Part shown: positions 1,101-58,623 of the stretch, piece after piece | Layout: each line of letters starts with the position of its first letter | Position numbering within the stretch: position 1 is the first letter of the stretch | Assembly: GCA_905221615.1 (NCBI GenBank) | Contig: CAJNDT010005869.1 | Location: 491,733-555,732, forward strand | From: Symbiodinium sp. CCMP2592 | Lineage: Eukaryota > Sar > Dinophyceae > Suessiales > Symbiodiniaceae | Reading direction: 5' to 3' | Length of the DNA stretch: 64,000 bases | The notes under the pieces: generated by a model | Databases searched by the model: none | What the model saw: the letters and a program-made list of their open reading frames with translations, nothing else | What the model was told of the DNA's origin: nothing | Program-made: the position numbers and the translations under genes

Positions 1101-2500
1101 AGCAACAGGATACTACATAGTCCAATCGAATTTACCATAATATCGTAATGTACCGTAACACAATATAACATAATGTAACCTAATGTTATAAAATATACTA
1201 CATATTATGTTGTAAATATGCAGACTGTATTGTACTATGTTACAATGTACTACACTATAAACTAAGAATTTGTTCTGTTCTATGTCATCTTCTGTTATAT
1301 TGTATTGTTGTATTTTTAGTATGCCATTATATGCTATAAGAAGCAAGGTTCTGTTATGTCAGAAAATGTCACACCATTTTTGTGTTGTCGAACAATCTTA
1401 TGTCGTTCTTCTGGTTTACTATGTTATATATATTAGGTTAGAATGCTAACGGAAGAAGAGACACGAACAGGCACGGAAGAACAAAACACCCGCCGCCGCG
1501 CTTTTCGAGACGTGCAAGCTTGATTCAAAGAGTGTTCTCGAAGCCCATCATGTGAACGTTGTCTCTGCAAATGGGGGGGGCTGCGCCCCCCCCAACCCCC
1601 CCGGTTGTTTTAAGCCGTGCAGGGTTGCTTTGAAGCATATGCCTTTTTTTGAAACCCAGCAAATGAGGGCGTCTCCGCCCTTGTAGATACATGCTGAACC
1701 AGAATCGCCAAATGAGGGGCGTGTTTAAGATAGATGATGAAGCGGAATACCAACAACATCTACAACAGGAAATCCGTCCTAAATGTGAAATTGTAAGGAC
1801 AATTTGATTTTCCCGAGGAACAACCATATGTTGTCCTTCTGAAAACCTGAAGAAATGAACCGAACGCCATAGGTAATAGGAAAATAAGCTTTTTCCCACG
1901 AAAAATCAAGGACAACTGAGGGAAATACCACGGAATCCGCAGGAATATCGTGTTTTCCAGAGGAAAAACCAAACAGATCCTAAGGAAACAAAAGAAAATC
2001 CCTAGGAAAACAGTGTTTTCCCTTGGAAAAATTTAGGAATTGCTGTATTTTAAGTGATTTGAATTTTTTTGATCCTTATTTTAATTTTTTTTGATGCCTC
2101 TGCCCCAGGAATTGCTGTATTTTGAGTGATTTAATTTTTTTTTGATCCTTATTTTAATTTTTTTGATCTTTCCATTTAATTTTTTTTGATCCTTATTTAA
2201 TTTTTTTTTGATCCCTCACCCGCTTAAACGGTTAGTTAGTTGCTATTACTATATTTTGGTTCCTTACTATGATCACAGCATAGTATACCCCCGAAACGCT
2301 GTTCTAATTGTTAAGGTCCCTATACGAAGGGTTCAGGCTTTAGGGCTTTGGGGGATCAGGGTTGAGTGTTCAGGGGTTCATCGATAGCTGTAAGGGTTCT
2401 AGTTAAGACTGTGTTGCAAAGGACCTGTAAGTGCTTTCGGGTTTAGGATTCTAGTATTTGGGGTTTCTGGTCTCGGGAAGAGAGGGTGAAGCTTACAGTC
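1101..2500. other. AT-rich then mixed intergenic DNA, no gene seen
   Basis: The stretch 1110-1440 is AT-rich and repetitive with TAATGTA/TATAA units. The stretch 1745-2040 is a diverged second copy of sequence found at 250-530 (the segment containing TCCTAAATG, GAAATTGTAAGGA and TTTGATTTTCCCGAGGAA). No exon with plausible coding bias was found. Confidence 0.6.
2040..2220. repeat. Tandem T-rich minisatellite
   Basis: Repeats of TTTTTTTGATCCTTATTTTAA-like units occur at least five times, with an interrupting copy of AGGAATTGCTGTATTTT. This is low-complexity, non-coding DNA. Confidence 0.8.
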
Positions 2501-2795
2501 TTTTGCAGAAGCCTCCCTGACTGAAGAATATCCGTTGCTTAAACCCTAAAACCCTACCCCAAGGTACAATGCTTCATGGCTTGGCCTCTCTGCTGGGTAA
2601 GGTGTTGCAGCAAGAAGTGAGCAATATTCGACCGGTTTCTGCTAGCTGGGGTGGGATCGCACAGTTCAGGGCACTCGCGTGCACGACGCCTTTGGGCTTA
2701 AACCCTAAGCGTCAACCTCAAACCCTAAACCCTGAACCTGGCACCCTACACCCTAAACCCCAACCCTAAACCCAAAAGCCTTAAATGAGTCGAAG

Positions 2796-2860
2796 GAGAC
2801 CTGGGGTGTGGCTCTCTGCTTTACCAGCACCTTGGTGTCTTTTCCCTTCGCGAATATGCT
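2796..2860 (+). CDS. Gene 1 exon: hydrophobic membrane segment
   Basis: The acceptor CGAAG|GAG is followed by a frame reading ETWGVALCF...FPFANM, strongly hydrophobic. The donor ATGCT|GTGCC leaves two bases that join in phase to the exon at 4351. It is flanked by CCCTAAA runs upstream and TTTAGGG runs downstream. Confidence 0.5.
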
Positions 2861-21816: not shown

Positions 21817-21874
21817 GTGCCTGTCACCGTGATCACCGGCTTTTTGGGGAGCGGGAAGACGACCTTGCTGAACC
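21817..21874 (+). CDS. Gene 2 exon 1: Walker A
   Basis: The acceptor TTGGAG|GTG opens VPVTVITGFLGSGKTTLLN. The GC donor (AACC|GCAGCT) leaves one base that forms Arg with exon 2. Upstream coding sequence is not resolved. Confidence 0.92.
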
Positions 21875-24800
21875 GCAGCTCGGCCAGGGTGCATAAGGAG
21901 GTTTGCATCATATCCAGCATGTTCCCCGTATCGTCCCTGCATAGCTTCACTACAGTACACCGAACCCTTATCTGATGATTTCAAGCCCATCGCTCTAGGT
22001 TTCGAGCCCAGGGCCGTCCGGATGTAGGGGCCGAATTTTTGTGGGTCGAGGCCAGGGCCTCAATCCGCTTTAGCTCTCTCATGTTCTAGCACGTATATGA
22101 TGTGTGTGTCTCAGAGATTCTTACAGTACAGTTTACAAGAAAATGACGTGATCTGACAAAGATATGGCATCATACGGTATGATCCCCAACCCTAAGTCCT
22201 GAACCAAAAACCCTAAATCCTGAACCCTACACCCTAAACCTTAAGCCGTATAAGGCATCCTCCGAGAGCAGCACGGGAAGCGGATTGCGGTCATCGAGAA
22301 CGAATTTGGCGAGGTGGGGATCGACTCCACCCTCGTGGAGCAGGCAGGAGCTTGAGGGTTTGTAGGGTTTAGGGTTTAGGAAGTTTAAAGTTTAGGAGTC
22401 TTCGGGTTTATGGTTCAGGGTTTAAGATGCGTAGACCTAAAATTTTGATAAGTTTAAGGTTTAGAGGGTTTTTAGGGTTTGGAGCTTAGGTTTGTAGGGT
22501 TATGAGGGTTCAGGGTTGAGGAGTTATAGGGTTTAGGATTTAGGGTTTTGGAGTTGTAGGGCTGTTCGGGTTTGGAGTTTAGGGTTTGTAGGGTTTAGGG
22601 CATAGAGGATTTTGCATAGGGTTTAGGTTCTTTCAGGGTTTCTGCGGTTTGACTTCTCGCCGAACAGAGCGGGCTGTGATAGAATTTGGTACTGGTTCCA
22701 TACATCTAGCATGCGCCAGGGAGGTGTACAAGATTTTTATCTCTGCTATTGTTGGAAGGTTTTAGCCCTGGTAGAACAGGCCGGGTTGCTATAGATCATT
22801 GCGAGGAGTTCACATAGCTTCAAGAGGGCTTGTTAGGATTTTAACCAGCTTTTGGATTCGCACCAGGCATTGAAGTCCGGCTTCGCAAGGGCTGTAGAAC
22901 GGAGTCATAGTTTCTTTGGTGCAAGCTTTCAGCACGGAGTTCGTCCACCGTGTATGCAACAAGAGATGCTCCCAGAAGTCAAGTCTTGTTTCGCTAACGT
23001 CGTCCGCTACTTACAGTAAACAGGTCGCTCCAGCCCTGAAACCTTAGACACCCAAGCCCTAAAGCCTGAAGCCTTATGAAGCCTGACTAACTAGTATACC
23101 AGGCTCTTGAGTAGATGACAAATCATTAGCCAGAAGTTGGAGTCGGGAGGCGGAGCGCACCACTGAGACGATCGTCGAGATGAACAATGGCGACATGCCT
23201 TGCCATGATGTTCAGGTTGTTGGGTTTGTAACTAGGGTGTAGGGTGTATAATGAGGGTTCAGGGTTTAGGGATTAGAGGTTTTGTGTTTGAGAAGTGCTG
23301 TTGCGGATCTTTCAGGCTCATCTCATGGTGTGCTGAAACACAAATGCGAGGTTTGTTTTGAGTGGCTGCTGTAGCTGAGAGAGTGACCAAAGATGGCGAG
23401 AAAGGAACCCAATATTGACGACTAATTAAGAATTTGATTTAGGCTTGAAACTTTAAGCCTTAACCTATGACCCTAAACCCGAGACACTAAGCCTTCAACC
23501 GCCTAAACCTTTGGTCCGTTTATTCCGAAGATTCAAATCCTAAACTTACTTCCTCAACCCAGGCCGTAGAATTAAACCCTACTTGTGCCCTGAAGCGTCC
23601 GGCAAGGTTTCTCGAGGTTGACGTTTGCTAGATTCACTCCTTTGTGACATACGTTTGCAGAGGATGCAAGATCAAATCTCTGGGCTCCCTTAACGGTATA
23701 TAGGTTCTTCAGGGTCCAGGTAAACCATGTATAAACAAACTCTAAGCCCCCAACATTCGCCCCAAAGAAGCCCTAAGCTGTATGCAACCCGCTATTATTG
23801 TTTCAGTTATAGCGGCTTACATTTAATAGAACCCCCAAGCCCTTAACCCACGCAATAGAACCCAAAGCCCTATGCCTTCTGCCCCAAACCCGGAGCTCTA
23901 AACCTCATAGAAGCTTTCTGCAACGACCGATCGGATCAGGTTGCATTTGCTGCACCCTTCGTGGGGATTTCATCCAGGGAATGCAGAAGGCGCCCCGATG
24001 GTGTAATGCAGACGCTTGAATACTTGACAACCAGCATTATTCCCAATCTAATTATTCTGAGCCCGACATTTATCTCGGGTTTAGGGTCAGTATTGGGGGT
24101 GTAAACACCGCTGTGGGCATGCAGATAATGTTTGCAATTGCTGTCAGTCTTATGCAGTACCCTTCGTGGCCAGACGCCGCTGAACCCTGAACTCTAAACC
24201 CCAAACCCCATAAACTTCTAGCAAGCCTTATTGCCCCAAATCTTTGACCCTTACAGTCTCTGTCTGGTAGGTGCTCAAGGATGTTCAATCCCGCGGCAGC
24301 CATCTCGCCTCTCAGCCGCCAGGAAAAGTCTGTTTGTGTTCAGGGCTTTGGGGGGATCTCGGGTCTAGGGTTTGGGGTTTCGGGTTTTGTCAGATAGGGA
24401 TTAGGGTCTAGGGTTTAGGGTTCCGCGTTTTGTTAGATAGGGTTTAGGGTCTGGGGTTTAGGGTTCGACGTTTTGTTAGATAGGGTTTTGGGTTTCGGGT
24501 TCCGGGTTTTGTTAGATGGGGTTTAGGGTTTAGGTTTCCGGGTTTTGTTAGATAGGGTTTAGGGTTTAGGGTCTCGGGTGCCGGGGTTTTGGCAAGATAG
24601 CGTAAAATGTTCGGGCGCTGGGGCTTAGGGGCTTAGGAGTTCATGGGTCTCGCGTGCAGTCATTTCGGGGTTTGAGGTTGGCTTTGCCGGTTCCTTGGAG
24701 GCCGTACGCTTCTGGGATCAGTCGTTGATTCTCGCAAACCCTAAACCTGTTGGCACACTTAGAGTATTCCGCAAACGAGCTCTAAATTCAACCCTAAAAC

Positions 24801-37572: not shown

Positions 37573-37749
37573 CGACCCTGAACCCCAACCCCTAAACCCC
37601 TGAACCCTAAACCGCCCAACAAAAGGGGAAAGTGTCGAATCTCGACCCGACCCCACGAAGTCATAGTAACTGAGGAAGGCTGAAGATGTAACTTTGCCTG
37701 GCGGTACAAGCAAGAATCCATAAGCCCTCATTGAGCCTACATGAGTAAA

Positions 37750-38030
37750 CCCTTATATAAATTCTAAACCCCAAACCCTATGCCCTAATTAAGCCCTAAA
37801 GTACTAAACCTTAAACTCTAAACCCCAAGCACTAAAAAAAGCAAACCCTAAGCCCCAATTAAGCCCTAAATTACTAAACCAGAAACTCTAAACCCCAAGC
37901 ACTAAAAAAAAACAAACCCTAAACCCTGAACCCCAAACCCTAAACTCTAAACTCTAAACCCTAAACCCTAAACCCCTAAACCCCTAAACCCCTAAACCCC
38001 TAAAAACCCTGAACCCCAAACCCTAGACCG
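37750..38030. repeat. Dense CCCTAAA block followed by TTTAGGG block to 38280
   Basis: Irregular CCCTAAAC units on + to about 38030, then TTTAGGG units from 38128 to 38275, with the candidate exon between. The two arms could pair over a long distance. Confidence 0.8.
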
Positions 38031-38054
38031 ATGTAGGCATCGAAGACAGCTAAG

Positions 38055-38116
38055 GTTTCGTCGATCCCGGCTCCGGGGTGTTGGAAAGCAACGTCAAGTC
38101 CGCCCACGCGGCCTGA
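38055..38116 (+). CDS. Candidate exon FVDPGSGVLESNVKSA
   Basis: It lies exactly where a long CCCTAAA-sense block ends and a TTTAGGG-sense block begins, the position exons occupy elsewhere here. After CTAAG|GT the frame reads FVDPGSGVLESNVKSAHAA then TGA, with codons rich in G/C at third positions. A GC donor is available before the stop. Gene identity unknown. Confidence 0.45.
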
Positions 38117-39140
38117 GGCGTAGGGCTTCTTAGGGTTTAGAGTTTAGGGTTTGGGGTTTAGGGTTTAGGGGTTTAGAGTTTAGGGTTTGGGGTTTAGGGT
38201 TTTTAGGGGTTTAGGGGTCTAGGGGTTTAGGGTTTAGAGTTTAGGGTTTGGGGTTTTTAGGGTTTTGGATTCTCAGGGGTACTTAGAAATGCCATTGCAA
38301 TTTTGGGTTCCCATAATCCCTAAGAAACAGCTACATTGTTTGCTAGGGGTCTAAGTTCAGTATAGGATTGGGTTGCAGGGCTCCTGAAGAAGCTCGTTTC
38401 AGGGTTCCTATGGGGGTTTGGGGTTTATAGTTCACTTCAGGGTACTATGGGGATTCGACAGGGGTGTAGGGTTGCCTTACAAGGTGGATAGGGTCAAGAG
38501 TCAAGGGGTTTGTCAGTGGTAATTGGCTGTGCAGCTCAGAGGACTTCTACTTGAATGTCAGGGCTTCGGGTCTTGTGTGACTCGGTCGGAGGTACAGGCC
38601 AGGCTTTATGAGCTTTTGCTTTTGTTGGGCCTTCGTGGCATTTTACGGCTCTAGGTTTATAGCCCGAAGGACTAAATCCGAAACCACAAAGCCTAAAGCA
38701 CGGCTTTCAGAAGCTAGAACCCTTTCCCAGGCTTCAAAAAATTGAGACGGCCCTGGCGTGAAGCACTGCTGCCGAGAGACTTTTTGTTAATATAGGGGCC
38801 TTCCTAACTCCCCGTACTGTTTTGGAGCGGACCCTTATTATATTCATGGTATACTATACCGCAATCCCTATTCTAATTGTTCAGGCCCCAAAATGATTCC
38901 TAATGGAGTCTCCGGGAGAGTCTCTGCCGAGGGGTGGTTGTTGTTGCAGTGGACTCCGAATTGAATTGGGTTTCTAGTTGCTACAGGGTGTCATGGGGCT
39001 TGACAAGGTCGACGGGGTCGTATAGGCTTTTTGCAAGTTTGCTTATCGTTTGTTGTTTCGCAGGGTTCGTATAGTTGCTGTAGGGTTTTCACAGTGTCTA
39101 CGGCTAAGCTGCCGTATGTCCTCGCGTAGAATTTTTGACA

Positions 39141-39615: not shown

Positions 39616-41345
39616 GAAACCGGCGGTGTCCGGGTTCCAGCTGACACTTTTCAGACTTCACCGGTGGTGTTCGAAGGTTTAGGGTTTGGGTACAGGCTTT
39701 CTGTGGCGTCCTGGGGGGTTCTGGGACTTGAAGCACTAGTATCGCCCGTCCTGCACAAATTCAGGCCAAGCAGAGCTTTGCCGCTTCCGCCTGCGCATGG
39801 CGTTCTGAGAGTGTAGGTCTGTAGCAAGAGGTTACGTGAGGATGTAGGGTTTCGTACTCCGGGTAATTCTCCGATATGGGCGTTTCGAGTTTAGGCTTTT
39901 GGACTCATGGGGAAAGGTATAGACAGGGCCTATACACAGTGCGTTTCGAATATAGTAATTATTAGGACCCCAAGGTGTATACAGAGATTACAAACGGGCT
40001 CAAAGCACAAGCCTAAACCGTAATCTAACCCCAGATGTAGAGTTTATAACGACCGCACAACCACATGAAGTCTTGTCGGTTGCAGTACAGACGGTGAGGT
40101 AAGCTGTATTCTCGCCAGAAGGCTTGCAGTGCCGACGCCGAAACACTGACGATGTGAGATAAAGAAGCGCTCTGTGTCGTGGCGTTTCCGATATCCAGGA
40201 GGACCAAATGAACCCTAGACGAGTTGATGGTTTATGCCGCCCCACTATAGGTTTTTCCGGTGATGTGCTGAGGGTCCCATGCGCTTTAAGGTGTGGCCCC
40301 GTAAGATTAGGTTCAATCGCATCAGACAATTGACTTAAGCATTTTCGCCCATGCATACTTGAAGTTCTCAAACACGTAGTGGACGTATGTCCGCAGGGAC
40401 ATAGTGGGCTACCGCAGCGACCCCGTGAGCTACTGCTGCTGGTAGCTTTACTTATGATCACCCGGTGTGGATCGGCCTTGCAGCGTCCCCCGAAACAGTC
40501 CCATTTTTTAAGTATACAAGTACTCCCTACTGTCGGATCGACAGTCCATGAAGAAGACCTATTTGGAGGGTTTGGGGGGGGCCTCGGGCATTTCCGTTGC
40601 ACCTTTTCGTTTAATGACAGAGTTGGGGCTTGAAGCGACACCTTTGAGACTTGCCGTCCAGGTAGACTACGCCCTTGTGGAAACACTAAACCCGAAGCCG
40701 CTCTTGGAATGCTGCGCCCGGCGTATGTGTGAGCAAACATGTCTCGCGCGGTGTTGGTTGCCCGAGGGTCTGCTGGTTGGCTGTGACGATCCGGATCGGA
40801 GCGAATTCCGCGAGGCATGACCGTCGTGTTGCTTGTGGATGGCTTGCCCGGGGTGTGGTATGCTTGTAAACCTCCTTGTTTGCCAAGCTGTTAAAGGATT
40901 CACGTGCAGTGTGCTTGAAGGTTTTGAACCTGCAAAACATCAGGTGACAGAGTTCATCCGGTATGTTTTTCGAGAAGTGCGTTTGGCGAGCTTTGCAGAC
41001 CTCTGCGAGATCAAAATGGTTGTGTCTTTTTCGGGACCGCAAAGCGGGCTTCCAATTATTAAGGGCCCCACATGGGGCTGGGTCACAATTTGTTGGGGAT
41101 GCTTACACAGACCATAAGCCGATCCTTGCTCAGCTTAACTTTCCCCATATTTCCAGTAATTTCCCTGTTGCTGTCGCAGCTAGCCTGAGTATACAATACC
41201 CGAATGACGCTAATTCGCCCTCGATTGCCATGGGTGTTTCATGATGGCGTCACTACTGTCAACCCTCCTGTCAGTAGTTCAAGATGAGAGAACTACCTGC
41301 CTGCAAAGTCTCGGGCCTTTCTGGGGAGGCAACTGGCCCGCCCCA

Positions 41346-41724
41346 CTGCGGCCGCTAATTGGCTGTTCAAGGTTAGGTCTTCAAACGCCAAGATGCCTAC
41401 CCTCCAGAGAAAATGGGGGGTTTAGGGTTAATGCTTCGGATCAACTTGTGCACGCTGAACCTCGCCCGTGCGTGCAATGCCAGGTTGGGAGGTCGCACCA
41501 TGGAGATTTTCGTAGGAAGAATGGTGAATACGCTTCAATGCAAGGCCTGGCTCATACGCAGAGCCGGTGCCTTGTTTGCAAGATGCGCACGTTTGCCCCA
41601 AGGCAAGAAAAGATTGGAAGCTCCGATGTGACAGTGCCTTAGATCACAGCTTGCCAAGTGCGGCAACTGCGTTGCAAGTGCAGTACACCACATGGCTTGT
41701 GGAATCTTGTGGACGAAGCAGCCC
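41346..41724. repeat. Segmental duplicate, copy A
   Basis: Begins CTGCGGCCGCTAATTGG and ends GGACGAAGCAGCCC; a near-identical copy lies at 63512-63898. Copy A has about ten extra bases near 41701 (a local repeat of CTTGTGGA) and lacks about 17 bases present in copy B near 63717. Open frames differ between copies, which argues against conserved coding. Confidence 0.85.
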
Positions 41725-45007: not shown

Positions 45008-45023
45008 GCCTGGGTCTGGGATC

Positions 45024-45049: not shown

Positions 45050-48000
45050 GTGGCCTGGCGTGCAAGTTTGAGGGTTTTGAGACTTTGGGGTTTCGGGTTT
45101 CAGGGCTTTCAGGGGTTCAAAGTTTAGGATTTCAGGGCTTCAGGATTTCGTGGTCTCCGAATATGGCATATATCATATTATTGTGTGTTTGTGTTTGTTT
45201 GTGTTAGCTCGAGCTCTCAGAGCGGATTGATCTGGTGTTGGGGTCGAGGCTTTGAGGCGAAACCCCTTGCTACAGAATCCCTTCGACAACCCGGATCTGC
45301 GGAAATTTACAATTTCCCCTTGAGCGCTTTTAGGCATTCTTTCATTTTTGCGGTTTTGGCTCGTAAATTGACACCGTAGGATGAATTACTCTCCACATGT
45401 CCCCACCAAGCACCAGCTTGTGAAAAGACTCTGCGCATTGGAAACACACAGTCTAGACGCAGCCGCGGCAGAGACCCAACGACGATCAAAAGGCTCAACA
45501 GCCAAAACCCCTGCACGGTTTTGGGTTCAGGGTTTAGGGATTCAAAGCCTACCCCCCAGATCGCAAACTCCAGCACCAGACCCTAAAGAAATCAAAGCCG
45601 AAACGCAATTCCCAGCCGACCGCAGAGCCACTCTCAGTAAAGCTTATTCATTCCCGCAAGCATGCGGTCTAAATCCGATCACAACAAAGTGAACTTACGA
45701 GGTCCTGATACATGCCTTCCCTAAACCCTAGACCCTAAACCCGTTTAGACAAAGTGGATTCCGCCGACCTTAACTGCTAAGGGGAAAAAGGCGTTCAACA
45801 AAACACCTTTTAGACTTTGTCCGAAACCCCAAATGCCACTATCGACCTGGAAGCCCCGATAACACTGCCATGGAGATATTCCCAAGACTCATTAACACAC
45901 TGTGTACAAGGAACGACAGAAACGGTGACGCACAACGAAAGATGCAGAAGACAGAAGCAACACAAATTGACAAAACCTCAGAAACCTCAACTCAAGAGCT
46001 CCCAAGCCGTAAACCGTAGTACTGTAGTAGCCATACCCCAAACCCTAAACCCCTAAACCCTAAACCCAAAGTCCCCGAACCCTGAAGCTCCAAAGTCCCT
46101 AAACCCTTAGACCCAAAGCCCCCAAACCCTAAACCTCCTAAATCCCTAAACCCTGAACCTTCGATTCGGAGGTTCATGGCCCGGCTTGCAGAGCAAGCGG
46201 AGCGCTACGAGGACATGGTGGAGCAGCTCGGATCAAAGGGCTCCGAGCTGGGATGAAGCTGGATTGTTTAGAGTTTAGAGTTTGGGGTTTTGGATTTAGG
46301 GTTTAGGGCTTTGGGTTAGGATTTAGGGTTTGGGGTTTAGGGGTTAGGATTTAGGGTTTAGGGTTTGGGGTTAGGATTTAGGAGGGTTTGGGGTGATCAA
46401 GCGTCCTTTTTCATCCTTCGGGTTTGGGGGAATCCTCAAAAAGAGTCCAGGCATAAGGGATGCGTCATCCCACCTTTTGAGGCCTGCGATCGGACTTGAA
46501 CAAAAGTCAGAGTGTCCTTTGCCTTTAGGGGTTCCGTTAACGGTTGTAAGCTATCTTCGGATTGTCGTTTAGGGTGTTTGTGGGTTTAGGGTTTATGCTC
46601 GCGTTCAGGTTTAAGGGTTTGTACAGGTTTATTGAGGTTCTTTAACGGTTTCTGCGAGGCTGTCTGCTAAGTAGTTCCGAGAAGGGTCCTAGAGTTTGCA
46701 GGTGGCATTTCCTCACAAAAAAAGGTTTCAGAGGGCTTTGTATGGGCGTGCAGCACATGGCAGTACCAGTTCACGGCTACTACCTGGGGTGTGTCATGCA
46801 CGGATGGTTGAAGCTTCCTGTTGTGGTATGTGACATATGGGCAGAATCCCATGCCCGAATCGCTAAACTCTAGCCCTCAGCCGAATCTCGAAATCTTGAC
46901 CCTAAAGCGGGACCTAACTTTTTCCTAACCCACAAATGCTAGACTCTTAAACTAGTTATCGAAGCCCCTGGAACCCACAAACCCTGAAACCCCAAACGCT
47001 AAACCCCTAAACCCTAAGACCCAAACCCAAAACCCTACAACCCTCAGCCCTAAACCCTAAACTCGGACCTCTACGTCCCAAACTCTCATCTAAGATCTGC
47101 ATAGCGAGGTATCCTAGGTAGGGGGCCCTTCTTAACCTACTTCTGGCTCTCTGAAGAGGCATCTTATTGAGAGGGTCTGTATCCCCAAGGGTCCCCCAAT
47201 CCCAAACCCTTAATCCCAACCCATAAGGTACCCTAAACCCTAAACCCTAAACCCTAATCCCTAAACCCTAATCCCTAATCCTTAAACCCTTAATCCCAAC
47301 TCCTAAGGTACATGAAGCGGGTGGCTTGCATGGGCCGGAGACTGAGCTCAGAAGCCCGGAAGGGCGGCGTCGGGATCTCAAGGAAGGGCTTTCGGAAGCT
47401 TTCGAGGGTTCTTTATTCTTGGCGTTCTTCTGCTTGGCTCTTAGGACTTAAACTCTGGGGTTTCTATATGAACCAGAATAAGCATGGTTGTAATCGGGCG
47501 GTTCGGTCGATACCCATATGTATGCGGTATTTCGCGATATATGTATTGCCGGGTTTCGGTTCGGTTCCGTAGCGATACGCAATACCGATTACCCACCACC
47601 TCCAGCCACCGACCAACCTCCAGCCACCTGCCTCCACCCCAGCAGCCGCCTCCAGCCACCTGCCTACCTCCAACCAACTGCTTCCAGCCACTGTTTTCGG
47701 AGGGCCCCTAACCCTCGGAAGCTGCTGAACCCCAATCACACCTAAGCAGCCCTGAACCCAAGCCCCGCTTCAAGACGCTCATCCCTAAAACCCAAAGCCC
47801 AGACTCAACTTAAAACCCTACCGAGGCTTGCAAAATCCTACAAACCCCCTTCGAAGCACCGCCCAATCTTTCATTGAACCCTAAACGATCCTAATCCCCA
47901 AATCCTTGATTCCTGAATCCCTCAGCCCTATAACCCATACATTCCGATTTCCCTAAGCCCAAAAATCCTCATTACCAAATCCCTAAGGTCACTGAACTCC

Positions 48001-51000
48001 TAAGACCCCTTACAGTAAACACCGTAAAGTTGGAAACCTATTGGTGCTGGCATTCCCTATACATTACTATCGAGGATTGAGGCTATTGGGTTTCCAACTC
48101 TTGGGCTTCTGAGGACCCTCTATAGATCCCTTATAGAACCCTTGAAGGAACCCTGTTCTAATTATTAAGGCCCCTCTAGTATATTTCTACTGTAACCCCT
48201 TCATCTCCTCAGGTTCCGAGTTGAACCTGGATGAGCGCTGCTCGGCTGGCCTTCTCTTACGGGGAGCTGGCAGGTTTAGGGTTTAGGGTTTGGGGGGCGG
48301 GTGGGTTTCGGGTTTGGGGTTTAGGGTTTAGAGTTTTGGGGGTGGGTGGGTCAAATTTTGGGTGGGGGTGGGGTTAGGGGGGCTCTGGGTGTATGTTTCT
48401 TGGAGGGGAGGAGGGATGGCACAGGGTTTCCCAGAATCCAGACCCACTTTGTTGAGGAATATACGTTTGGTTTAGGGTTTAGATCACGTTTAGAAAGGAA
48501 TTATACTTTGCATCACGTGAAGGATCCCTCCGAAATTGAATCTCTACCGTTTGACCACGGGAAAACGTTAATCTACGCTAAACCTTGAATTGTAATGCCA
48601 AGTGGTTCCTAAGGTTGTTTTGGGTTCCCGAAGGTTCCTTAATACACTACCCCCTTTGAACCACCGTCTAGGGCTCTAGGGCTTCGGTTTTGGGTCCCCC
48701 CGAAGGCTACGATAATTTCCAGGCGCCTGTAACATTGGTCGGGTTTCTGCTTCTTGGACACCACCTAAAATGTAAAACAATGGCCCAACACCATATAAAG
48801 GGCGACTTGTTCTACGTACTTTTGGGGTCCAGGCAAGGTCTGGCTTTGGGGCCGGCAGGACTTGGGACCTAGAGTGGAGCTTGTTTTGTTTGAAACCGGA
48901 CTTGGAGTTGAAGTTTCTACTGGTAGTTCGTTTAAGCGAGCTTTGCTTTGGAGTTTTCCCTTAGGTGCATGGGGGGGTTGTTGCAGGACTGTTATAGGAT
49001 TTGTCTCTGATTTCGGCTTTGAGGGTGTTGGGTTTACGCGTTTCGCATGAACAGGGTGTTCTCTAGGGCGTGATCTTTAGGGGAGATCAGGGTCTAGGGC
49101 ATAGGGCTTGGCCCGTTCCTGGGCCAAGGCAATGGCGGACAAGGTTTTGAACCCGATAGGTTCCAGACCCTAAGCACTAAATAACACACTTAGTTGATCA
49201 GAAGATACCATCGATAATTCGGATGATTTAATCGCGCCTGCACGCTCAATTCAGGTATTTCTCGAAGCCTTTTTTGTATTAGCAGCCCTCCAGTAATTCG
49301 AGGCAACCTCTTCTCAGTGGCGTACAAGCACGCCGTCGGCGCGAGCTGCTTGTCTATAAGGATGGCTCGTTGGGTCCCGGCACCCTACCCAGAGAGGCCC
49401 CATATCCCTTCATGAAGAGGTCTAGTACGCCATAAACCCTCTCATGACCCTATAGGGTCTAAACCCTAAGCCCTAAACCCCAAGCTTGCCCTAAACCCTT
49501 AAAACCTACAGTCCAAGCTGATGGTGTCGACGTACTTGAGGGAAGCTCGGCTTTGAGCCTGAAGTGGGCTTCCGACTTACCTCTTCGGGTTAGCTAGCCG
49601 GGTTCTTGTTTCAGCATCAATCCTCAAACCCACAAAGGGTTCTGGGTTCGGCGGGGTTTGCATTTTCGTTTAGCTTCTGTCTTGGGATAATGTGTCCCCA
49701 ACCCCTAAACCTTGAACCCTAAAACCCTAAACGCTTATACAAAATTCGGGTACAAGGGTTTGTTCGGACTCGAAGACTCGGGGCTTGAGGGTTTTGAGCT
49801 AAGGGCCGCAAGCCCACCATCCGAAGCCCTGAAGCAAGCAAGTACGGGTGACTACTATACAGAAGCCTAAATCAAAAAATCGTATCCCTTAGGGGTTGCT
49901 GTTTATATTCATACTACAAACAGCACCAAAGCCCTATTCTAAGGGTTAGAGTAGCAGTATACTATAAGGGCTACTATGAGGGAAGAGCCGTAATCCATCC
50001 AAGCCCTTAGCCCTGAATCTCAAGGAACGCGATTTTGGGTGTAGCGTTTCCCTTCGCCTTAACACCATTTCCAAGGAAGACAAGCTTGGCGTGCAGTGAC
50101 TTGGTTGCAACCTTTGGGTCCGAGCTTTTTTCCTGGTTTGGTCCCTGAGCCCCATGAAGGCCTCTAGACTGCATAAGCCCCATAACCTCCCCAACTCCAA
50201 GCCCTAAATCCTAAACCCTAAGCCCCTGTCAGTGAAGCCCCTACCCCAGAATCCTGTCTCTGTGCCCCTCGATTTCACTGCCTAAAACCCGATTGCAAAT
50301 GATACGCTAAGCCGTTTGTAAGCTCTGAACCCGAAACCCGCAAGGCAAGCCCTTAAACCGGAAAATCGAAATTGCCGTACACCTAAATCCAATGTCCTAA
50401 GCCCTAAGCTGCCCTAAACTCCTCAACCCCTATAAACCCTGAATCCTGCCCTAAAGTCGACTTGAAGCCAGGACTCATTCAAGCCAGTGTAAACCGTTAT
50501 AAATTGTAAGCCACCTATAACCATCTATAACGAGCTCTAGTTAAACACCCTGAAAGTCTTGCTAAAGCCATTATAGACTCTTTAACGCCTAGTTCCTCAC
50601 CAAGTTAAAGTCCAGGTAAGCACCCTGATGACCTTGAGATCACCGTTAACTAGCAGCAACAAGGGCTGTAAAATGGCTAGGTAGGCCTTTGGGACATTTC
50701 GTATTTTCCCTTATTGGGTTTATAATAGGACCCTATTTACGAAAACTGTTCAGAGGCTTTAAAGGGCCAGCCTAGATGGTTAACGCCACCCTATTGCTGT
50801 AAAAAGCCAAAGCCAGGCGAACACCCTGAAAGTCCTTTGTTTAAAGGCGTTCTAATGTTTCGGGTTTGCCCGCGTGCCATTGTCAATGCTTGGAGGCAGA
50901 GATGAGTGTCAGCGAGGAGCCCGCTTGCAATGTTGCATGGTTTCGTCCATCCTGATGTCGGTGCTTACCCAATTGTGTGACTGACAGATCGGATGCTTTA

Positions 51001-54000
51001 GAGGGCATGCTGTCTTCCCAGAGAGCCCAGCACCTCTTCAACGTCATTGGGCTCTGCAGAGATGTTTCCGGAGTTGTTCAGGGGGACTGGCCCATCGGAG
51101 CAGCAAGATGGCTCGATGCCCATCGTAACGGTGCAAACGGAGGATGGGGACGACGGAGGGACAGACGGACGCACGGGCTTCGCGCAGCAGGATGTAATCT
51201 GAGGTTGGAACCCTAAAACCCAAACCCTAAACCGTTCCAAAGAGGCCCCAACAACCTGGCTCATCCTGGTAAGGAATTCTAACTGTACTGCAGTCGGAAA
51301 AGAGCCCTCAAAAAAAAAAAAAAACTAAACCGTGGGTCCCTCCTTGCAAGCTTCTTCACCATTCTAGACCCTATAGCGCCCATTTCTTCACCAAGTTACC
51401 CTAAACCCCTAAACTCTTAACCCCTTAAACAACTCAAACCCCTAAACCCCTTAAACCCCTAAGCCCTTAAACTCCAAAAGCCGAAAGTCCAGGTGAACAC
51501 CCTGGACTTGAAACCCTAAAACCTTAAGCCCCAAACCCTTAAACCCTAAACCTTAAACCTTTGAACTCTAAACCTTAAACCCTTAAACCCTAAACCTTTA
51601 AACCCGCACTGGAGCCAGGTGAACACCCTGGAGAAGCGCGAGGCGGCTGCCTCCAAGGGCGCGGCGATCCTGGAGCTGGTGCAGAAATACCGGGAGAAGG
51701 TCAGGGACCTTTTGAAGGATCCTTTAAAGGGTTCCTTAAAGGGATCTATAAGGGGGTTCCTTCAAGGGACCTTTCAGGGATCCTTTAAAGGATTCTATAA
51801 GGGGTTTAGGGTCTTAGGGCTTTTAGGGTTTTAGGGATCCTTTAACGGGATCTATAAGGGGTTTAGGGTCTTAGGGCTTTAGGGTTTTAGGGTTTTATTG
51901 TTCAGGGTTACCGGGAGGAGGCTGGGACGTTTTGGGGGCTTGATGGATGTGGGATAATTTAGTGTTTAGGGTTTTGGATTGCCGCTTTGGGGTTTTAAGG
52001 TTTCAGGAGAACCCTGGAAGGTAGATTATTTGGGGCTTACGATAGGATCTAATTCAGGATGTATAGGGTTTAGGGTTTACTTTCGGAAAATACCCGGAGG
52101 AGGCCGGGACTCTTGGGGGACCCACATAAGGGTCGAGCAGTCGAAATGGCAGGACGTGTTGAGATGAGAAAAAGGAAACACCTTCGACTGATGTATGCAA
52201 CTGATTTCGAACACGATTCAGAAATAAGATTGAGCAACATAGGGAAATAGTAAATAATCAGGAACTGGGAAAACCGCAGAGACCCGGCATCGCAGCAAAC
52301 CATAGAGAACATGGGAAACACAGCTGACAATTTGACGAACAGCAAGAAAAGAGTGGACCAAAAACCACAGCAAAGCGTAGGAACAAGAGGAGAAACATCA
52401 TGTATGTCCTACAATAACTGTTTAATATGTTTAGTTTCCCATGTTTCGATGCACAACAGCTGTCCCTGGCGATGTTTTCATTCTTTTTCCTATATGCTCC
52501 CTAATTGTTTCGCTGGTTTGCCTATTTCTCGACTCGCCCACGCCGTTTCAATTTCCTACCGCGTCCATCCTCCCACACAGGCTCCTTTCACGCCCCTTCA
52601 AAACCGAATCCGAAACCTAAGCTTTCCAAGTCCTTCGAATGCCCTCTAAACCTTACATAAACACGAAGCCCTACAGTAAACCATAAGCCTTGAGAAACCC
52701 CAGGACGCCATTGAAATCCCAAACAAACCTTGAAACCCTAAGAAACCCCAAGAAGCCTAAGAAACTCTAAGAACCCCCAAGAAACCCTAAGAAACCGACC
52801 TCTCCCAGAGCTTCGGAAGGTCGAGACAGAGCTGGCGAACAAGTGTAGAGAAGCCTTGAAGATCCTCTTTGAAGAGCTCATCCCCAAGGCTCTCAGGGAT
52901 CGGAGTTCTGACGGGCTTTGTATGTATATATCTATATATAACTAGTAGTATTATGTTTGGTTTTACACCAAGGCTTTTGGGATCTTTTGGATCGGAGTTC
53001 TGATGTGACAGGGTTTGGAGAGTCTTCAGTGGCTGAAGGCTTGGGTTTGGGGTGTAGGCGTAGGGATACTGCAAAGTTTAGGAATTTGGGGCATGCACAG
53101 CGTAGCGGAGTTCGAGGAGTGCACCCCCGAGGCAGAGTTCCATTGTTTTTGTTGTTACAAGTAGCAGATTTTAAGCATAGGTTTGTATAGGTTTGGTCAA
53201 TGGTTTAGCGGGTTTTCACCGAGGCTGTTGGGGATCTTTTGGGGTTTGGGGCTTGAGGATAGAGAGGGGGGATGGGCCCTAAGCACCGAGCCCTAAGCCT
53301 GTGAAGCCCGTATAGTTGGTAGCGGGCGAATAGGGCGCCAGGCAAAATCACGGGGCTTTGCTGGTGTTCAGGGATATTTGAGGGGTTTCTGCTGCTTTTC
53401 AGGGTAAGCGGGATGGGGGGGTCGGGGAGCGGCGGGGTGGGGGTCTCAATAAGTCCTGCCGTCACATATCTTCTCGAGTTCGCCTGCTTGTGAGACGACC
53501 TTGTGACGACATGGCGCTCTCCTGGCATGCTTTGACACTTTCAGCAGTCATCAGCATTCGGCTGTCGATGACCATGACGGTGACGATGATCATGCTGATG
53601 GTGACGGTGATGAAGTTGGTATTACTGGTAACCAATGACGGTGATGAATAATCATAATTAATATAATTATGGTCATGATGGTAATTCGCAATAGTAATGA
53701 AGGTGACGAAGAAGAAGATGATGATCGTAACGGATTAGGAGATTTTTGCCGAAATCCAGTTCACACCCAAGAAGAAGCCGGCGCCCTGTGCACCCGCGCC
53801 CTAGTTGGCTATCTACAAGGCCCCCGTCAGGACCTCGAATAATGTAATGTAAGAACCTGATTTGGAAACCCTGGGCCTATAACCCCAAAATAGTAGGAGT
53901 CATATAAAGAACCCTGACGGCTTCTTAATCAGGTTCCTACATTACTCAATGCCCTGCCGAGGCTGGCACTAGCGATTCCAAGGTCTTCTATTTGAAGATG

Positions 54001-57000
54001 AAAGGACCCAGAGCAGTCTTGGGAGCATCCGGGATTTTGGGGTTTTGAGTTTAGAGGGGGCTACTATGGGCTGCTAGAAGACCATGCGGCTTTCTGAAAG
54101 GGTTTCAGAAATACGCAGGGGTGTCTATACAGGTGGGGGAGTGTAGTTTAGAGAGGGCTACTGGAAGACCATAAGGTCTTCCTTAAGGGGTATCTATACA
54201 GGTTCGTGGGTTTTGGGGTTTTGGCCTCAATTAACAGCACCAACCAGCCCAGGGTTTTCAGGTGTAGGAAGTAGTTTAAGGATTGAGGATATTAGGGTTT
54301 AGGGGCAGGGTTGTCGGGTTTTGAGTTTGTAGTCAGACTGACTGACAGAAGTGTTACTGGCATCGCTACTGTTGCTTATGAATGGTAAGTTTAGTGGACG
54401 CGACACAAGAACATGATGGCCTTGGACGGAGTGTTCCGAGTCTGTCTAAGACCTCCAGATCTCCTTTGGGCTTAGGATTCAAGTTTATTAAGTCCTATCT
54501 GCTGGAGTTTAGGGCCTCAGGGCATAGGGTTCTGGGTTTAGGTTTCAGGGTTGTTTTGTGGCTTAGGGTTTTGGAGCGCCCGTGCAGGAGACTACCATCG
54601 GTACCTAGCTGAGTTTGCCACGGGCGAGATGCACAGCAAGTGTGCGCAGGAGGCTGCGATGCTGGGTTCTTGTCAAGGCATCTACATCACGCTACCAGAT
54701 ACAATAGCTTACTAGGAAACCCTAGAAAACCAGAATTTTCTACAAGCCCCCGGCTTCAACCCGAACCCAACAGCCCCCACCGAAAGTCCAAGCCTACAGC
54801 CCTCAACGCTACTTCCCAAACCCATAATCCTAAACGATGCACGCGCGACTTAAACCAACAAAGTTTTTCGAGTTTAGGGTTTAGGAGTTTGGGTTAAGGT
54901 TTAGAATGGCTCAGGGGTGTGGAGCTTGTACTTTTCGTTCGGGGTTTAGAAACGTTTGGGCCTCCGAAGCAGTGGGTTTTTCAGGCTTTAGGGGCGTGGC
55001 AAACCACGGCTTGGATGAGGGTTCCCTAGGGTTTTAGGCTTTCGGTGCTCGGGGGCATGCAGAGTTAGGTTTTTAGTAAGTCTTTCCAGTGTTTTAATTA
55101 AAGTTCGGGGAGTGAGGGTTTGGGGTTGAGGTTTGAAGTTTGGGGGCTTAGGCACTGGGGGGTTGGGGCTTAGCTTAGGGATTGGCGGCTTGTGGCTTTC
55201 GGACTTCGAGGCTGCGGATTATTTTTGAGGTTCGGCTTGTAAGATATAGGGTTCAGGGATTAGGCCAGTTTATGGTTTTGGGGTTGGGGGTTTAGGGCTC
55301 CTTCTACAGAACCCTACAGCCTAAACCCTGAATCGAACGAGACAGCATCGCTCTCAAGGACAGCGAGAAAGAGGCAAGAGCTTGGCTCCAGAAAATGCTT
55401 TAAACGCGATAAACATGAGTCTTGGAGTTGTTGGCATCCTAGTGCATAGTTATACGGGGGCCATACCGGCATATCGTTACTAACTCTACTGTCCAGTATG
55501 TTAGGGGGGAGGTGGTTAGTTCAAGCCCCTAAGAGAAGGACCTCAAACCCTTCCTTCCAGAGGCCTTCACCCCCAACCCTAAGCCTCCAGACCCCTAAAC
55601 CCTAAATCCTAAACCCGAAAGTGAGCCCTAATCCCTTCCGTTTTTCAAGGCCCACGACGCTTACCAGAGCTCATCGGAAGCCGCGATTTCGGACCTTCCG
55701 CCCACGCACCCGGCGCCTGGGTAAAAAGGTGGGAGGTTCGGGTTGCTAGGGTTCATGAAAGGGATCCTTACAGGGTTCCTTGAAGGGAGTTATAAGGGGT
55801 TTAGGGTTTAGGGTCTGTAGGGTTTTAGGGGTTTCTGGCTTTTTAAGGTTCAGGGTTTAGGGTTTTAAGGTTCCCTGCTGTTTGGGTGAGGATTTGGAGT
55901 TTCGTACTCGCAGGTTGAGGGTCTGAGAGTTTAGGGTTTAAGGGGTGCAGATTTGGGGCTTCGGGTTTGTATGGCTTGGGGCTTAGTGTTTGTATGCTTT
56001 AGGGTTGTGGGGCTCATAGGGTTTAGGGTTGAGAGCCGCTCCAAGCTCCTAACGGTTTTGGGTTTAGGGTGTGACACTTGAGTTCCCGAAATCCTTCTAC
56101 ATTATGCCCAAGTCCGTGGGCTTCACGTGGACTAGGGCCTAGGGTTTGCATTTGGCGTTTTGATGAGTGTATGTAAAGCTCCTTTTGAATGTTGATGAGC
56201 GTATATCCTGGCTGTTATTATGGGGATACCATCTTGTTTAAACATGATTTATTTTAGTGTTCTGGGCAACTATTTTAGTGTCCCTGTATCAAAAGCGAAA
56301 CTTAAAAGCCCTTACCTTCTCAAGCCCGAAGGCCCTAGACCCTTAGACCCTACAGTGTCCTGCAGCCCAACGAACCCGAACCGCTGCAGCTGTAAAGTCC
56401 TAAAACATTCAATCCTAAGCCGGAAACCATGGAAGCCCTGCTTTCAGGTGCGCTTAGGCCTTGCCCTGAACTTCTCCGTCTTCTACTATGAGGTCTTCTC
56501 GTCCCCAGCGACTCGGTTGAAGGGTTTGACGACGACTACGACAACTACAACTAGGACTAGCGCTTCTGCCGATACCACTACTACTGCTACTACTGCTACT
56601 GCTATAGCTGCTACTACTACTACGAGTACGACTACGACGACGACTACTACTAGTACTACGACCACGACTGCAATCGCTATTCTTACGATCTTGCCGTTGT
56701 TCTTATATAGTTGAAAGTACCATGACCTCATGACCTGTTTTGACGGGCTCAGACTCCCAGACTCCTTCAGACGCCCGAAGCCCCAGACAAGCCTCATGTT
56801 CCCTTATCACAATACACAGTTCTAAATATCCCAATTTCACGTTCAAGCGGGATTGATTCAAATCCGCAAAACCGCGGCTATAACCAAAACCGTGGTGAAA
56901 TCCTTGTAATCCCCATCACATACCCCTCAGCACCCCAAATTCATCGACTCACAGTGCCTTGAACCCCAAAAAATTCAAAAGATCAATATCCCCACACCTA

Positions 57001-58083
57001 AACCCTTTACCCTCGCCACCCCAAGGTTTTTCTGTCTTTAACAAAAAAGCCATACAAAAGCCTCGTAAAGCCTTCACAAACCCCAGAAAGACGCTGTAAA
57101 ACACTTGTTTGATCGTTTAACTCCCAGGAAAAGGCATGCCTTCTCGCGAAAGCTGCTTTCGACGATGCCATGGCCGTCATGGACAGCCTCTTTGCTGGAA
57201 GCTCTGGGGTTCTCTGAAAAGGGTCTTGTGGGGTTTGGGGCTTAGGGCTTAGGGTTTTCAGATGGTTTAGGGTTGCGGGATCAGGGTTTAAGGTTTCGGG
57301 CTCGGGTGGGGAGGACATATGGACAAACGTTTCGGCCTGCGCCATTCGTCTGAAGTAAGACCCCATGCGGAGTAGCAGAGTTCCCGGAACCCGTTCCGCC
57401 GTTCCCGGGACATAAAAAGACCTGGGCTTGCCTGCGGAGTACTTGATACATCGTCTGCGACTTTGTCCGGAGGAGTAGCAGAACAGCCCGGTTCGCTCGG
57501 ATCTTACCGGTGACGGGGTGCCTTGCTTACTGAAACATAAAAGTGGGTCATACTTCAAGTTGATGTTTTGTAGTTTTGGACAGCTTATAGCGTAGAGCCT
57601 GCTGACTTAAACGACCATGATCCTCAATGGAGCATCTTTAGGCACTTTCTATAGGCCCATGCACTGCGGTGTACGTACGCTGCTGTATCCAATAGCTCCC
57701 TCGCCAAGGTCTGGATGAAGACAGCTACAAAGACAGCGCTGCCACTTGGTAGTAGAAGCTCGTTGATAACCCTGCCCCGAGCGTGGTGCGTGGTTGAACT
57801 TGCCAGGGAACTTGCAGCCTCTACATCCTTAAAGCCCTTGCATTATGCAGTTTGAGCCCGAAACCCTACAACCCCAAACCCCGTCTGAGGCCATCATGAA
57901 GCTTAAAAACCCTTAACTCTAACTCAAACTCCAAATTCCCTACATCCCTAAAGCTCCTGTGAGGCCATTATGCAGCTTCTGCGAGACAATCTCACCCTCT
58001 GGACCTCCGACATGCAAAACCCTCACAAGGAGCCCGGTGGGCTGAAATCTGTAGGGCTTCAGGGTTTAAGTTTACAAGGCTGA
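45024..58083 (+). CDS. Gene 3: 14-3-3 protein
   Basis: A phosphoserine/threonine-binding adaptor that acts as a cytosolic dimer. Thirteen exons sum to 786 bases (261 codons plus stop), ATG to TGA, all phases consistent, close to the usual family length. It shows MARLAEQAERYEDMVEQL near the N-terminus, [80 protein letters not shown] and W. Known ligand-pocket residues Lys (AYK), Arg-Tyr (HRY), Asn (ALN) and Asn (RDN) are present. The segment that normally reads RRxxWR is ASCLSIRMARW as spliced here, which is odd. The C-terminal tail after LWTSD ([10 protein letters not shown] onward) may include intronic read-through. Donors include GT, GC and GA. Confidence 0.95.
46172..46239 (+). CDS. Gene 3 exon 2: MARLAEQAERYEDM
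   Basis: The acceptor TCGGAG|G opens FMARLAEQAERYEDMVEQL and ends GSK. The GC donor (AAGG|GCTCCGAGCTG) closely resembles the next exon start (CAG|GTTCCGAGTTG). Confidence 0.95.
48028..48099. mobile_element. Short inverted-repeat element GTTGGAAACCTA
   Basis: AGTTGGAAACCTA at 48028 and TGGGTTTCCAACT ending at 48099 are complementary. In gene 3 intron 2, upstream of a family right end at 48140-48178. Confidence 0.65.
48213..48236 (+). CDS. Gene 3 exon 3: SELNLDE
   Basis: A 24-base exon, acceptor CCTCAG|GT and GC donor GAGC|GCTGCT, equivalent to the ELTVEER block. Confidence 0.88.
49303..49373 (+). CDS. Gene 3 exon 4: [12 protein letters not shown]
   Basis: The acceptor TTCGAG|GC opens [18 protein letters not shown] and ends RMARW. 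The donor TGG|GTCCCGGCACCCT resembles the next exon start GTGAACACCCT. An earlier GC donor after AVG is possible but then a short exon would be missing. Confidence 0.8.
50541..51618 (+). repeat. Ghost copies of the exon 5 head in gene 3 intron 4
   Basis: Copies of CCAGGTGAACACCCTGGA occur near 50541, 50610, 50812 and 51488 with varying decay; the functional one is at 51615. TCACCAAGTTA is also shared at 50597 and 51390. Confidence 0.8.
50677..50775. mobile_element. MITE, CTAGGTAGGCC family, ATGG duplication
   Basis: Same ends and interior as 9959-10053, with ATGG on both flanks (50673-50676 and 50776-50779). It lies in intron 4 of gene 3. Confidence 0.87.
51619..51699 (+). CDS. Gene 3 exon 5: [14 protein letters not shown]
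   Basis: The acceptor AGCCAG|GTG opens [20 protein letters not shown] and ends YREK. Donor GT (AAG|GTCAGG). Extra copies of the exon head lie upstream and of the exon tail downstream. Confidence 0.92.
51688..52112 (+). repeat. Ghost copies of the exon 5 tail and donor in gene 3 intron 5
   Basis: TACCGGGAGAAGGTCAGGGA at the real donor recurs as TACCGGGAGGAGGCTGGGAC at 51909 and TACCCGGAGGAGGCCGGGAC at 52091. Between them are repeated GGATCCTTTAAAGG and TATAAGGGGTTTAGGGTCTT units. Confidence 0.85.
52820..52888 (+). CDS. Gene 3 exon 6: VETELANKCREAL
   Basis: The acceptor GGAAG|GTC opens VETELANKCREALKILFEEL and ends IPK. GC donor AAG|GCTCTC. Confidence 0.92.
53555..53725. repeat. GATGACGGT/GATGAT triplet tract
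   Basis: Degenerate GAT, GAC and GGT triplets inside gene 3 intron 6. Confidence 0.7.
53841..53946. mobile_element. MITE-like inverted repeat, GTAATGTAAGAACCTGATT ends
   Basis: GTAATGTAAGAACCTGATT at the left and AATCAGGTTCCTACATTAC at the right are near-perfect complements. It ends about 15 bases before gene 3 exon 7. Confidence 0.82.
53962..54004 (+). CDS. Gene 3 exon 7: [10 protein letters not shown]
   Basis: The acceptor CCGAG|GCT opens [14 protein letters not shown]. A GA donor (AAAG|GACCCA) is required to give the invariant KMKGDY join. Confidence 0.93.
54588..54649 (+). CDS. Gene 3 exon 8: [12 protein letters not shown]
   Basis: The acceptor GTGCAG|GA opens [20 protein letters not shown]. 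The best donor is GA (CAG|GAGGCT), phase 0. Confidence 0.92.
55650..55712 (+). CDS. Gene 3 exon 9: PPTHP
   Basis: The acceptor TTCAAG|GCC opens AHDAYQSSSEAAISDLPPTH and ends P. GC donor CCG|GCGCCT. Confidence 0.93.
56448..56507 (+). CDS. Gene 3 exon 10: [14 protein letters not shown]
   Basis: The acceptor TTTCAG|GTG opens [20 protein letters not shown], the most conserved 14-3-3 block. GC donor CCA|GCGACT; a triplet-repeat tract follows directly in the intron. Confidence 0.95.
56528..56690. repeat. ACT/ACG triplet tract
   Basis: ACGACTACGACTACTACTAC-type sequence directly after gene 3 exon 10; the open frame through it encodes poly-Thr and is intronic. Confidence 0.8.
57128..57197 (+). CDS. 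Gene 3 exon 11: EKACLLAKAAFDDA
   Basis: The acceptor CCCAG|GAA opens EKACLLAKAAFDDAMAVMDS and ends LFA. GA donor (GCTG|GAAGCT). Confidence 0.92.
57709..57737 (+). CDS. Gene 3 exon 12: LDEDSYKDS
   Basis: A 29-base exon, acceptor GCCAAG|GT, GC donor AGC|GCTGCC. It restores the family's SYKDS block before IMQLLRDN. Confidence 0.9.
57834..57963 (+). repeat. Ghost copies of the last acceptor of gene 3
   Basis: GCATTATGCAGTTTG near 57840 and TCTGAGGCCATCATGAAGCTT near 57884 resemble the functional TGTGAGGCCATTATGCAGCTT at 57959. Confidence 0.7.
57964..58083 (+). CDS. Gene 3 exon 13 and stop
   Basis: The acceptor TGTGAG|GCC opens [20 protein letters not shown] and reads to TGA at 58081. The last part resembles TTTAGGG-type intron sequence, so the true C-terminus may come from another exon. 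Two imperfect copies of the junction lie upstream. Confidence 0.85.
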   Translation, partial: [39 protein letters not shown]

Positions 58084-58619
58084 TCCTGATCTGGTGTATT
58101 ATCATATCTCAGATATAGTATGTTCTACGGGGGTTTAGCTGCGTCGGGTTTGCCTGTGTTTTCTGGCGGCACACTGTGAGGGTGTAAGTTGAAAGTTTTT
58201 ATGGGCTCACGACTTCGGTTGCTCATGGCTCTGGGAGATTCGTGTTGAGGGGTTCAGGGCTCCTTATGGTTAAATAGTACCTGCAGGGGGGTCTTTGTTA
58301 GCCAGTGAGTTTTCATTTTGGAACCCGTTTTAGGTGTCTGTTTTGTGATTACTGACACACACGCACACACACTCACGCTATAGATACGTTCTATAGACAG
58401 CTGTTCGGGATTCAGATGTTTGGATACTTCTTGCAAGTATGTGCCCATGATGATGTTGTCAGGGATGTTCATGCTGGCGACCCCAAAAAACCCTCAACCC
58501 CAAAAACAGGGACGACGGGGCACCACAATATGGGCAGTAGGGTGCGCAGTGCCCAGTCTTTTCGATGGCCAGGCTGCTCAAAAGGTCACTCCAGCTTGGC
58601 TCCACCATTTTCCTGCACA

Positions 58620-58620: not shown

Positions 58621-58623
58621 CCC

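Follow-up and report, generated by a model that had tools for sequence, protein, structure and literature searches.

In human introns with weak polypyrimidine tracts, G-rich and C-rich enhancers act in combination (PMC2481429). In zebrafish, dinucleotide repeats that complement each other across the two boundaries of an intron are reported to mediate splicing without U2AF2 (Lin et al. 2016, as cited in PMC9198270), and the introners of Amoebophrya carry inverted repeats of 8-20 nt at both intron ends, which could join exon boundaries (PMC7789003). Interstitial telomeric sequences of primates and rodents are described as insertions made during double-strand break repair (PMC7215372), and TTTAGGG telomeres are reported for dinoflagellates. 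Among the papers listed in searches for telomere-like or interstitial telomeric sequence together with dinoflagellate introns, which left most subscription journals outside, none describes the present arrangement in its title or the beginning of its abstract. An earlier claim that no such splicing device had been described holds only in part, since complementary or inverted repeats at intron ends are reported for zebrafish and Amoebophrya.

The DNA analysed here is a 64-kb stretch of the Symbiodinium sp. CCMP2592 genome (the window), in which TTTAGGG occurs 138 times and CCCTAAA 149 times, where the base composition alone would give 4.4 and 3.6. An earlier note, made from the letters alone, had claimed that most introns of three genes begin with TTTAGGG-sense (G-type) sequence and end with CCCTAAA-sense (C-type) sequence, that exons lie at the switch from C to G, and that the two intron halves could fold together.

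We examined the 17 introns of a 14-3-3 gene and a cobW GTPase gene, which were modelled independently of the repeats save for two exons (Table 1). The 14-3-3 exons were located by tblastn with a human 14-3-3 zeta sequence as the query, and their borders were placed by hand at AG/G (the slash marking the border) so as to keep the known frame, with the positions given in the earlier note known beforehand. The hand-joined peptide matched PF00244 over positions 1-223 of 223 (E 8.6e-74). Exons of this gene measure 24-82 nt (n=12) and introns 226-2,273 nt (n=11), and the 11 donors comprise seven GC, two GA, one GT and one that is ambiguous beside a probable missed micro-exon, which supports the non-canonical GC/GA donors proposed before. 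AG/G stands at 11 of 11 acceptors, these being hand-chosen borders; the introns show the dinoflagellate-type GT/GC/GA-AG pattern, which is not independent evidence since the borders were hand-fitted to frame and AG/G. For the cobW gene, the peptide hand-joined from seven exons matched PF02492 (E 6.9e-37); its borders are approximate, some of the introns so drawn lack an AG end, and the exon end at 24327 was adopted from the earlier note, our own string having stopped at 24322. The exon ends 46239, 51699, 55712 and 22343 agree with the homology-built exons, with the borders set by hand and the positions known. Exons 48213-48236 and 25304-25383 were spotted through C-to-G switches, and the main counts are therefore also given without both; the intron set numbered 15 at first and 17 after these two polarity-led exons were added.

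Table 1. Gene models, introns with the polarity score of each half, and the strong switch in the window (14-3-3 and cobW gene models; positions are those of the window)
Feature	Position	Strand	5' half	3' half	Remark
14-3-3 gene	46172..58045	+			tblastn, hand-set borders and Pfam; 12 exons recovered
14-3-3 exons 1-6	46172-46239, 48213-48236, 49303-49345, 51619-51699, 52820-52888, 53962-54004	+
14-3-3 exons 7-12	54588-54657, 55650-55712, 56448-56507, 57128-57185, 57709-57737, 57964-58045	+
14-3-3 intron	46240..48212	+	+34	-73	GC donor
14-3-3 intron	48237..49302	+	+48	+10
14-3-3 intron	49346..51618	+	-67	-91	probably with missed micro-exon; both halves C-type
14-3-3 intron	51700..52819	+	+67	-29	GT donor
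14-3-3 intron	52889..53961	+	+19	-6
14-3-3 intron	54005..54587	+	+20	+34	exception; both halves G-type
14-3-3 intron	54658..55649	+	+25	-19
14-3-3 intron	55713..56447	+	+72	-2
14-3-3 intron	56508..57127	+	+3	-11
14-3-3 intron	57186..57708	+	+22	+1
14-3-3 intron	57738..57963	+	-2	-14
cobW GTPase gene	21817..26592	+			Pfam on three frames and reading; 7 exons, borders approximate
cobW exons	21817-21874, 22255-22343, 23940-23978, 24271-24327, 25304-25383, 25783-25870, 26525-26592	+
cobW intron	21875..22254	+	+2	-17
cobW intron	22344..23939	+	+89	-14
cobW intron	23979..24270	+	+6	-11
cobW intron	24328..25303	+	+66	+24
cobW intron	25384..25782	+	+10	+6
cobW intron	25871..26524	+	+27	-23
Strong C-to-G switch	37746..38511				C block (37746-38025) and G block (38121-38511) around an island of 95 nt

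To score polarity, every 5-mer of a TTTAGGG array was counted as G-type (+1) and its complement as C-type (-1). Of the 17 introns, 16 scored higher in the 5' half than in the 3' half (p 1.4e-4, one-sided sign test), and the half-differences summed to 676. Circular shifts of the intron set on a 25-nt grid gave a mean of -1.9 (sd 162), and none attained this sum or as many polar introns. When the two polarity-led exons were left out, 13 of 15 introns were polar (one-sided p 0.004) and 0.08% of shifts equalled or exceeded the observed sum. Motif-free random 120-mers from the window and loci showed no polarity (99 for, 109 against). All six introns that had been cited as clear cases show a net excess of G-type words over the first 300 nt past the exon end and of C-type words ahead of it, and the two cited exceptions, after 10740 and 14196, carry net C-type words after the exon end. 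Together, these findings confirm that telomere-like words are arranged by strand around the exons of two homology-built genes. The polarity claimed earlier is thus confirmed for the 14-3-3 and cobW genes; position 6796 and the remainder of the first gene found no confirmation by homology.

The region of that first gene holds a palindromic, MITE-like element (7560-7680) that matches many places on both strands. With 40 of 2,922 first-look candidates scored, its matches genome-wide number at least 57 including its own place, the others being about 71-88% identical over about 110 nt. A frame at 11146-11502 contains FDDMMALLARKNPQFSQVVAVD and a second, at 8087-8203, contains VYWICAFAVNQHAGILP; both probably belong to the first gene, and presumably they resemble a widespread dinoflagellate protein family. 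Elsewhere in the window, positions 1-1100 are strongly A-rich, with GAAA-type simple sequence unlike the remainder, and 41214-41642 and 63474-63815 are two copies of a dispersed segment that encode nearly identical peptides. An uninterrupted 394-aa frame with MORN repeats (58561-59742; PF02493, E 9.3e-17) is almost without telomere-like words. The GC/GA donors, AG/G acceptors and abundance of TTTAGGG words fit a dinoflagellate host. A spliced-leader relic was sought within the 64-kb window, and none was found.

Telomere-like words are concentrated near the intron ends. On the donor side, 25-400 nt downstream, G-type words reach 94-174 per kb versus 2-32 for C-type, where the window baseline is 35.5 (G-type) and 34.8 (C-type) per kb. 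On the acceptor side, C-type words reach 122-127 per kb at 25-75 nt upstream, 73 at 75-100 nt and 38-50 at 100-400 nt, and G-type words stay at 9-21 per kb up to 300 nt and rise to 53 at 300-400 nt. Up to about 300 nt from either intron end, words in the wrong orientation are scarcer than in the window on average. More than 500 nt from the ends, counts are small and driven by single introns, and some of the 17 introns have few motifs near one end. Outside telomere-like words, GGG occurs at 34.7 per kb on the donor side versus 9.8 on the acceptor side, and CCC at 13.7 and 21.7 per kb, respectively. Since the polarity is unchanged by reverse complement, it should hold for genes on both strands.

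The earlier note had also placed exons at C-to-G switches. We defined islands as stretches of 60-350 nt between blocks of opposite type and asked how many hold a homology exon. In the spans of the two genes, such an exon was present in 11 of 14 islands at C-to-G switches and in 2 of 10 at G-to-C switches (p 0.011, Fisher test), or in 9 of 14 and 2 of 10 without the polarity-led exons (p 0.047). Over the whole window, the counts were 11 of 32 versus 2 of 24 (p 0.028), and 9 of 32 versus 2 of 24 without the polarity-led exons (p 0.09). Given that only 9-11 of the 32 C-to-G islands of the window carry a homology exon, the switch predicts exons as a tendency and not as a rule, and many C-to-G islands contain no known exon. 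The island of the strong switch in Table 1, at about 38.03-38.12 kb, contains an exon-like minus-strand frame, read from the sequence without homology support; a tandem array of a 39-nt unit (37356-37578; 5.7 copies, 88% matches) lies next to a strong C block.

When known exons were excluded, the coding score of C-to-G islands exceeded that of G-to-C islands at a block size of 12 (48 versus 37 islands, p 0.007), and this difference among unassigned islands depended on the threshold, with p 0.07 at a block size of 18 and 0.49 at 30. Ab initio exons found by codon score at threshold 12 gave 22 for and 14 against in the window and 22 and 15 at the loci, which is the right direction but not significant, and raising the threshold to 20 left 2 for and 3 against in the window. 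Since the exons are only 24-82 nt long, exon finding by codon score is too noisy. Codon training excluded the loci on contigs C5051 (2.96 Mb) and C868, which look bacterial: they hold numerous frames for kinases, helicases or chaperonins that run on at length without interruption, and few telomere-like words, and the frames mostly have a GC content of 0.54-0.61, with one locus at 0.46. These contigs may stem from a bacterial companion within the assembly.

To follow the asymmetry beyond the window, exact pairs of the decamers CCCTAAACCC and GGGTTTAGGG were counted over the whole 1.098 Gb genome in three gap ranges. The C-to-G order, CCCTAAACCC then GGGTTTAGGG, occurred 3,939 times at gaps of 10-40 nt, 20,775 times at 85-115 nt and 42,198 times at 285-315 nt, and the opposite order 5,209, 8,267 and 18,900 times, so that the ratio of C-to-G to G-to-C is 0.76, 2.51 and 2.23, respectively; the asymmetry thus extends genome-wide. 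A hand count of distinct places over the first 3.81 Mb of contig C1, the part covered, gave 37 C-to-G versus 14 G-to-C at 85-115 nt (p 0.002) and 15 versus 16 at 10-40 nt. Because separate places on C1 differ too, tandem copies alone are not the cause of the genome asymmetry. It is seen at gaps near 100 and 300 nt, which can hold a small exon and its splice sites, and not at gaps of 10-40 nt, into which these would hardly fit. At 15-40 nt past the C block of C-to-G pairs, the only pairs covered by this count, the acceptor-like CAGG occurred 5,733 times versus 2,865 for GGAC on both strands, a ratio of 2.0 to be set against a baseline of 1.45 in the window plus loci. Since CAGG also arises inside degenerate repeats such as TTCAGGG, part of this excess may come from them. 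Six C-to-G islands of the genome were read, of which two had coding scores higher than those of most shuffled sequences (p 0.04 and p 0.06) and four did not. A scan of viral contigs gave two matches, neither motif-rich like the Symbiodinium genome, and was dropped.

Direct exon polarity beyond the window is weak. For homology exons at 13 places outside it, flanks of 400 nt gave 6 for, 4 against and 3 ties (sum -2), and flanks of 1,000 nt gave 8 for, 3 against and 2 ties (sum +74); these places are mostly short open frames, and their genes are poor in telomere-like words. At 38 loci with long open frames, flank polarity was absent (17 for, 18 against, 3 ties), with a summed difference of -106 on which one locus, C-rich on its right side (L016), weighs. 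This lack of polarity at long-open-frame loci fits a link to splicing and not to genes as such.

Since the G-type and C-type halves of an intron are complementary, the earlier note had proposed that they pair and thereby join distant, weak splice sites. The observed arrangement is what such a device requires, with complementary repeats present at opposite ends in 16 of 17 introns, and co-folding predicted 54.7 intermolecular pairs between the two ends of an intron (15 introns; sd about 30; differences without significance test) versus 36.6 for random window pieces. However, swapped ends were predicted to form 56.4 pairs, two 5' ends nearly as many (52.4) and two 3' ends 33.2, and the C block before and the G block after the same exon paired at least as well over a shorter distance (64.7 pairs, 12 exon flanks). 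Predicted duplex energies were -125.0 kcal/mol for own ends, -123.4 for ends of other introns, -125.8 for exon flanks and -132.4 for random window pieces, an uneven comparison in that random pieces were all 300 nt and the ends of short introns shorter; own ends ranked at a mean of 8.3 on a scale of 0-16. Preferential pairing of the ends of one intron was thus not seen by co-folding or duplex energy, and these predictions do not support folding of the intron halves as the mechanism, which we regard as unlikely. Pairing of the blocks that flank an exon would loop the exon out and would favor skipping or circles. Since the ends do not pair by intron, and blocks flanking an exon pair no worse over a much shorter distance, linear signals are preferred.

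Three further explanations concern the origin of the arrangement. Telomerase may have added repeats at both ends of a break before joining, leaving G-then-C arrays where breaks were tolerated and intact stretches, exons among them, between C and G; the slight genome-wide excess of G-to-C over C-to-G at gaps of 10-40 nt agrees with this. On the other hand, both orders are depleted below 100 nt in the window, so that opposite orientations are rarely adjacent, motifs crowd near exons and not in mid-intron, and the long-open-frame loci lack flank polarity, all of which make a by-product of insertion decidedly improbable. If the introns arose from introner-like transposable elements whose terminal inverted repeats were telomere-like, their two ends would likewise be of opposite type, G and C, and introners are reported in dinoflagellates (PMC11453091 and PMC7789003). 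The 17 introns, however, have no common sequence outside telomere-like words: when these were masked, the introns of this small set matched only themselves and showed no shared family. Direct repeats at the intron borders are longer than at random (mean best 3.4 versus 2.2), a difference confounded by the common splice consensus, and an introner origin for these introns would surprise us. Nor do we give much credence to a neutral strand asymmetry, in which mutation coupled to transcription or splicing makes 5' ends G-rich and 3' ends C-rich and the repeats follow. GGG and CCC outside telomere-like words are indeed polar in the same sense, but an approximately three- to five-fold local enrichment of one heptamer family relative to the window mean is, in our judgement, hard to obtain from point mutation alone, and polar GGG outside these words is also expected of an enhancer code.

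The polarity and the genome asymmetry are best read as splicing signals. That the telomere-like repeats of the Symbiodinium genome act as oriented, linear signals is the explanation we tentatively favor, at somewhat under an even chance, with the splicing function inferred from sequence. The intron profiles contain an enhancer-type arrangement, with G-runs near weak donors and C-rich motifs before acceptors. CTAA, which resembles a branch point, occurs 26 times within 100 nt before acceptors versus 3 times within 100 nt after donors. Under linear signaling, (GGGTTTA)n would supply G-runs as intronic splicing enhancers beside mostly GC/GA donors, and (CCCTAAA)n would supply branch-point-like CTAA sites and C-runs ahead of acceptors. 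Telomere-like sequence would have become dispersed over the genome in some other way, and repeats would have been retained where their orientation aided splicing and lost where it impeded splicing.

Two other causes of the orientation were considered and rejected. Exclusion of AG could have explained the scarcity of G-type words before acceptors, but the AG-free zone expected there was not found before the acceptors of our introns (median 10 nt versus 8 nt at random AGG sites). G-quadruplexes were rejected as a general cause because a sense motif lies within 400 nt of the donor in just 5 of 17 introns, with an antisense motif in 1; the acceptor side has 2 sense and 5 antisense.

A stronger proposal is that introns across the genome carry TTTAGGG directed outward from the exon on either side, as a strand-oriented code that marks exons. 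Through protein binding, G-quadruplexes or RNA bridging, the spliceosome of this lineage would use the code to locate very small exons that have GC/GA donors and lie between introns of kilobase length. We consider this possible, if rather doubtful. If true, a strand-specific pair of words marking exons genome-wide would constitute a testable splicing code, would improve gene finding in dinoflagellate genomes and would provide an example of telomeric sequence recruited as an RNA-processing signal.

The Symbiodinium introns resemble the described systems in some features and differ in others. Like the introns served by human G- and C-rich enhancers (PMC2481429), they have weak signals and contain both G-runs and C-runs; in the human case both kinds of motif were studied upstream of the weak tract, whereas in Symbiodinium telomere-like arrays are oriented by intron end. 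Like the zebrafish introns (PMC9198270), they have simple repeats at one end that complement those at the other, but the repeat is of another type, and in Symbiodinium, where the comparison comes from DNA sequence, pairing of an intron's own ends is not favored. The Amoebophrya introners (PMC7789003) are also non-canonical dinoflagellate introns with inverted repeats at both ends; they have short repeats together with direct repeats and form repeated families, while the Symbiodinium introns compared have long telomere-like blocks and no further sequence in common. Finally, TTTAGGG-like repeats within chromosomes recall interstitial telomeric sequences, but those of primates and rodents are described as break-repair insertions (PMC7215372), whereas the repeats of Symbiodinium are ordered around exons.
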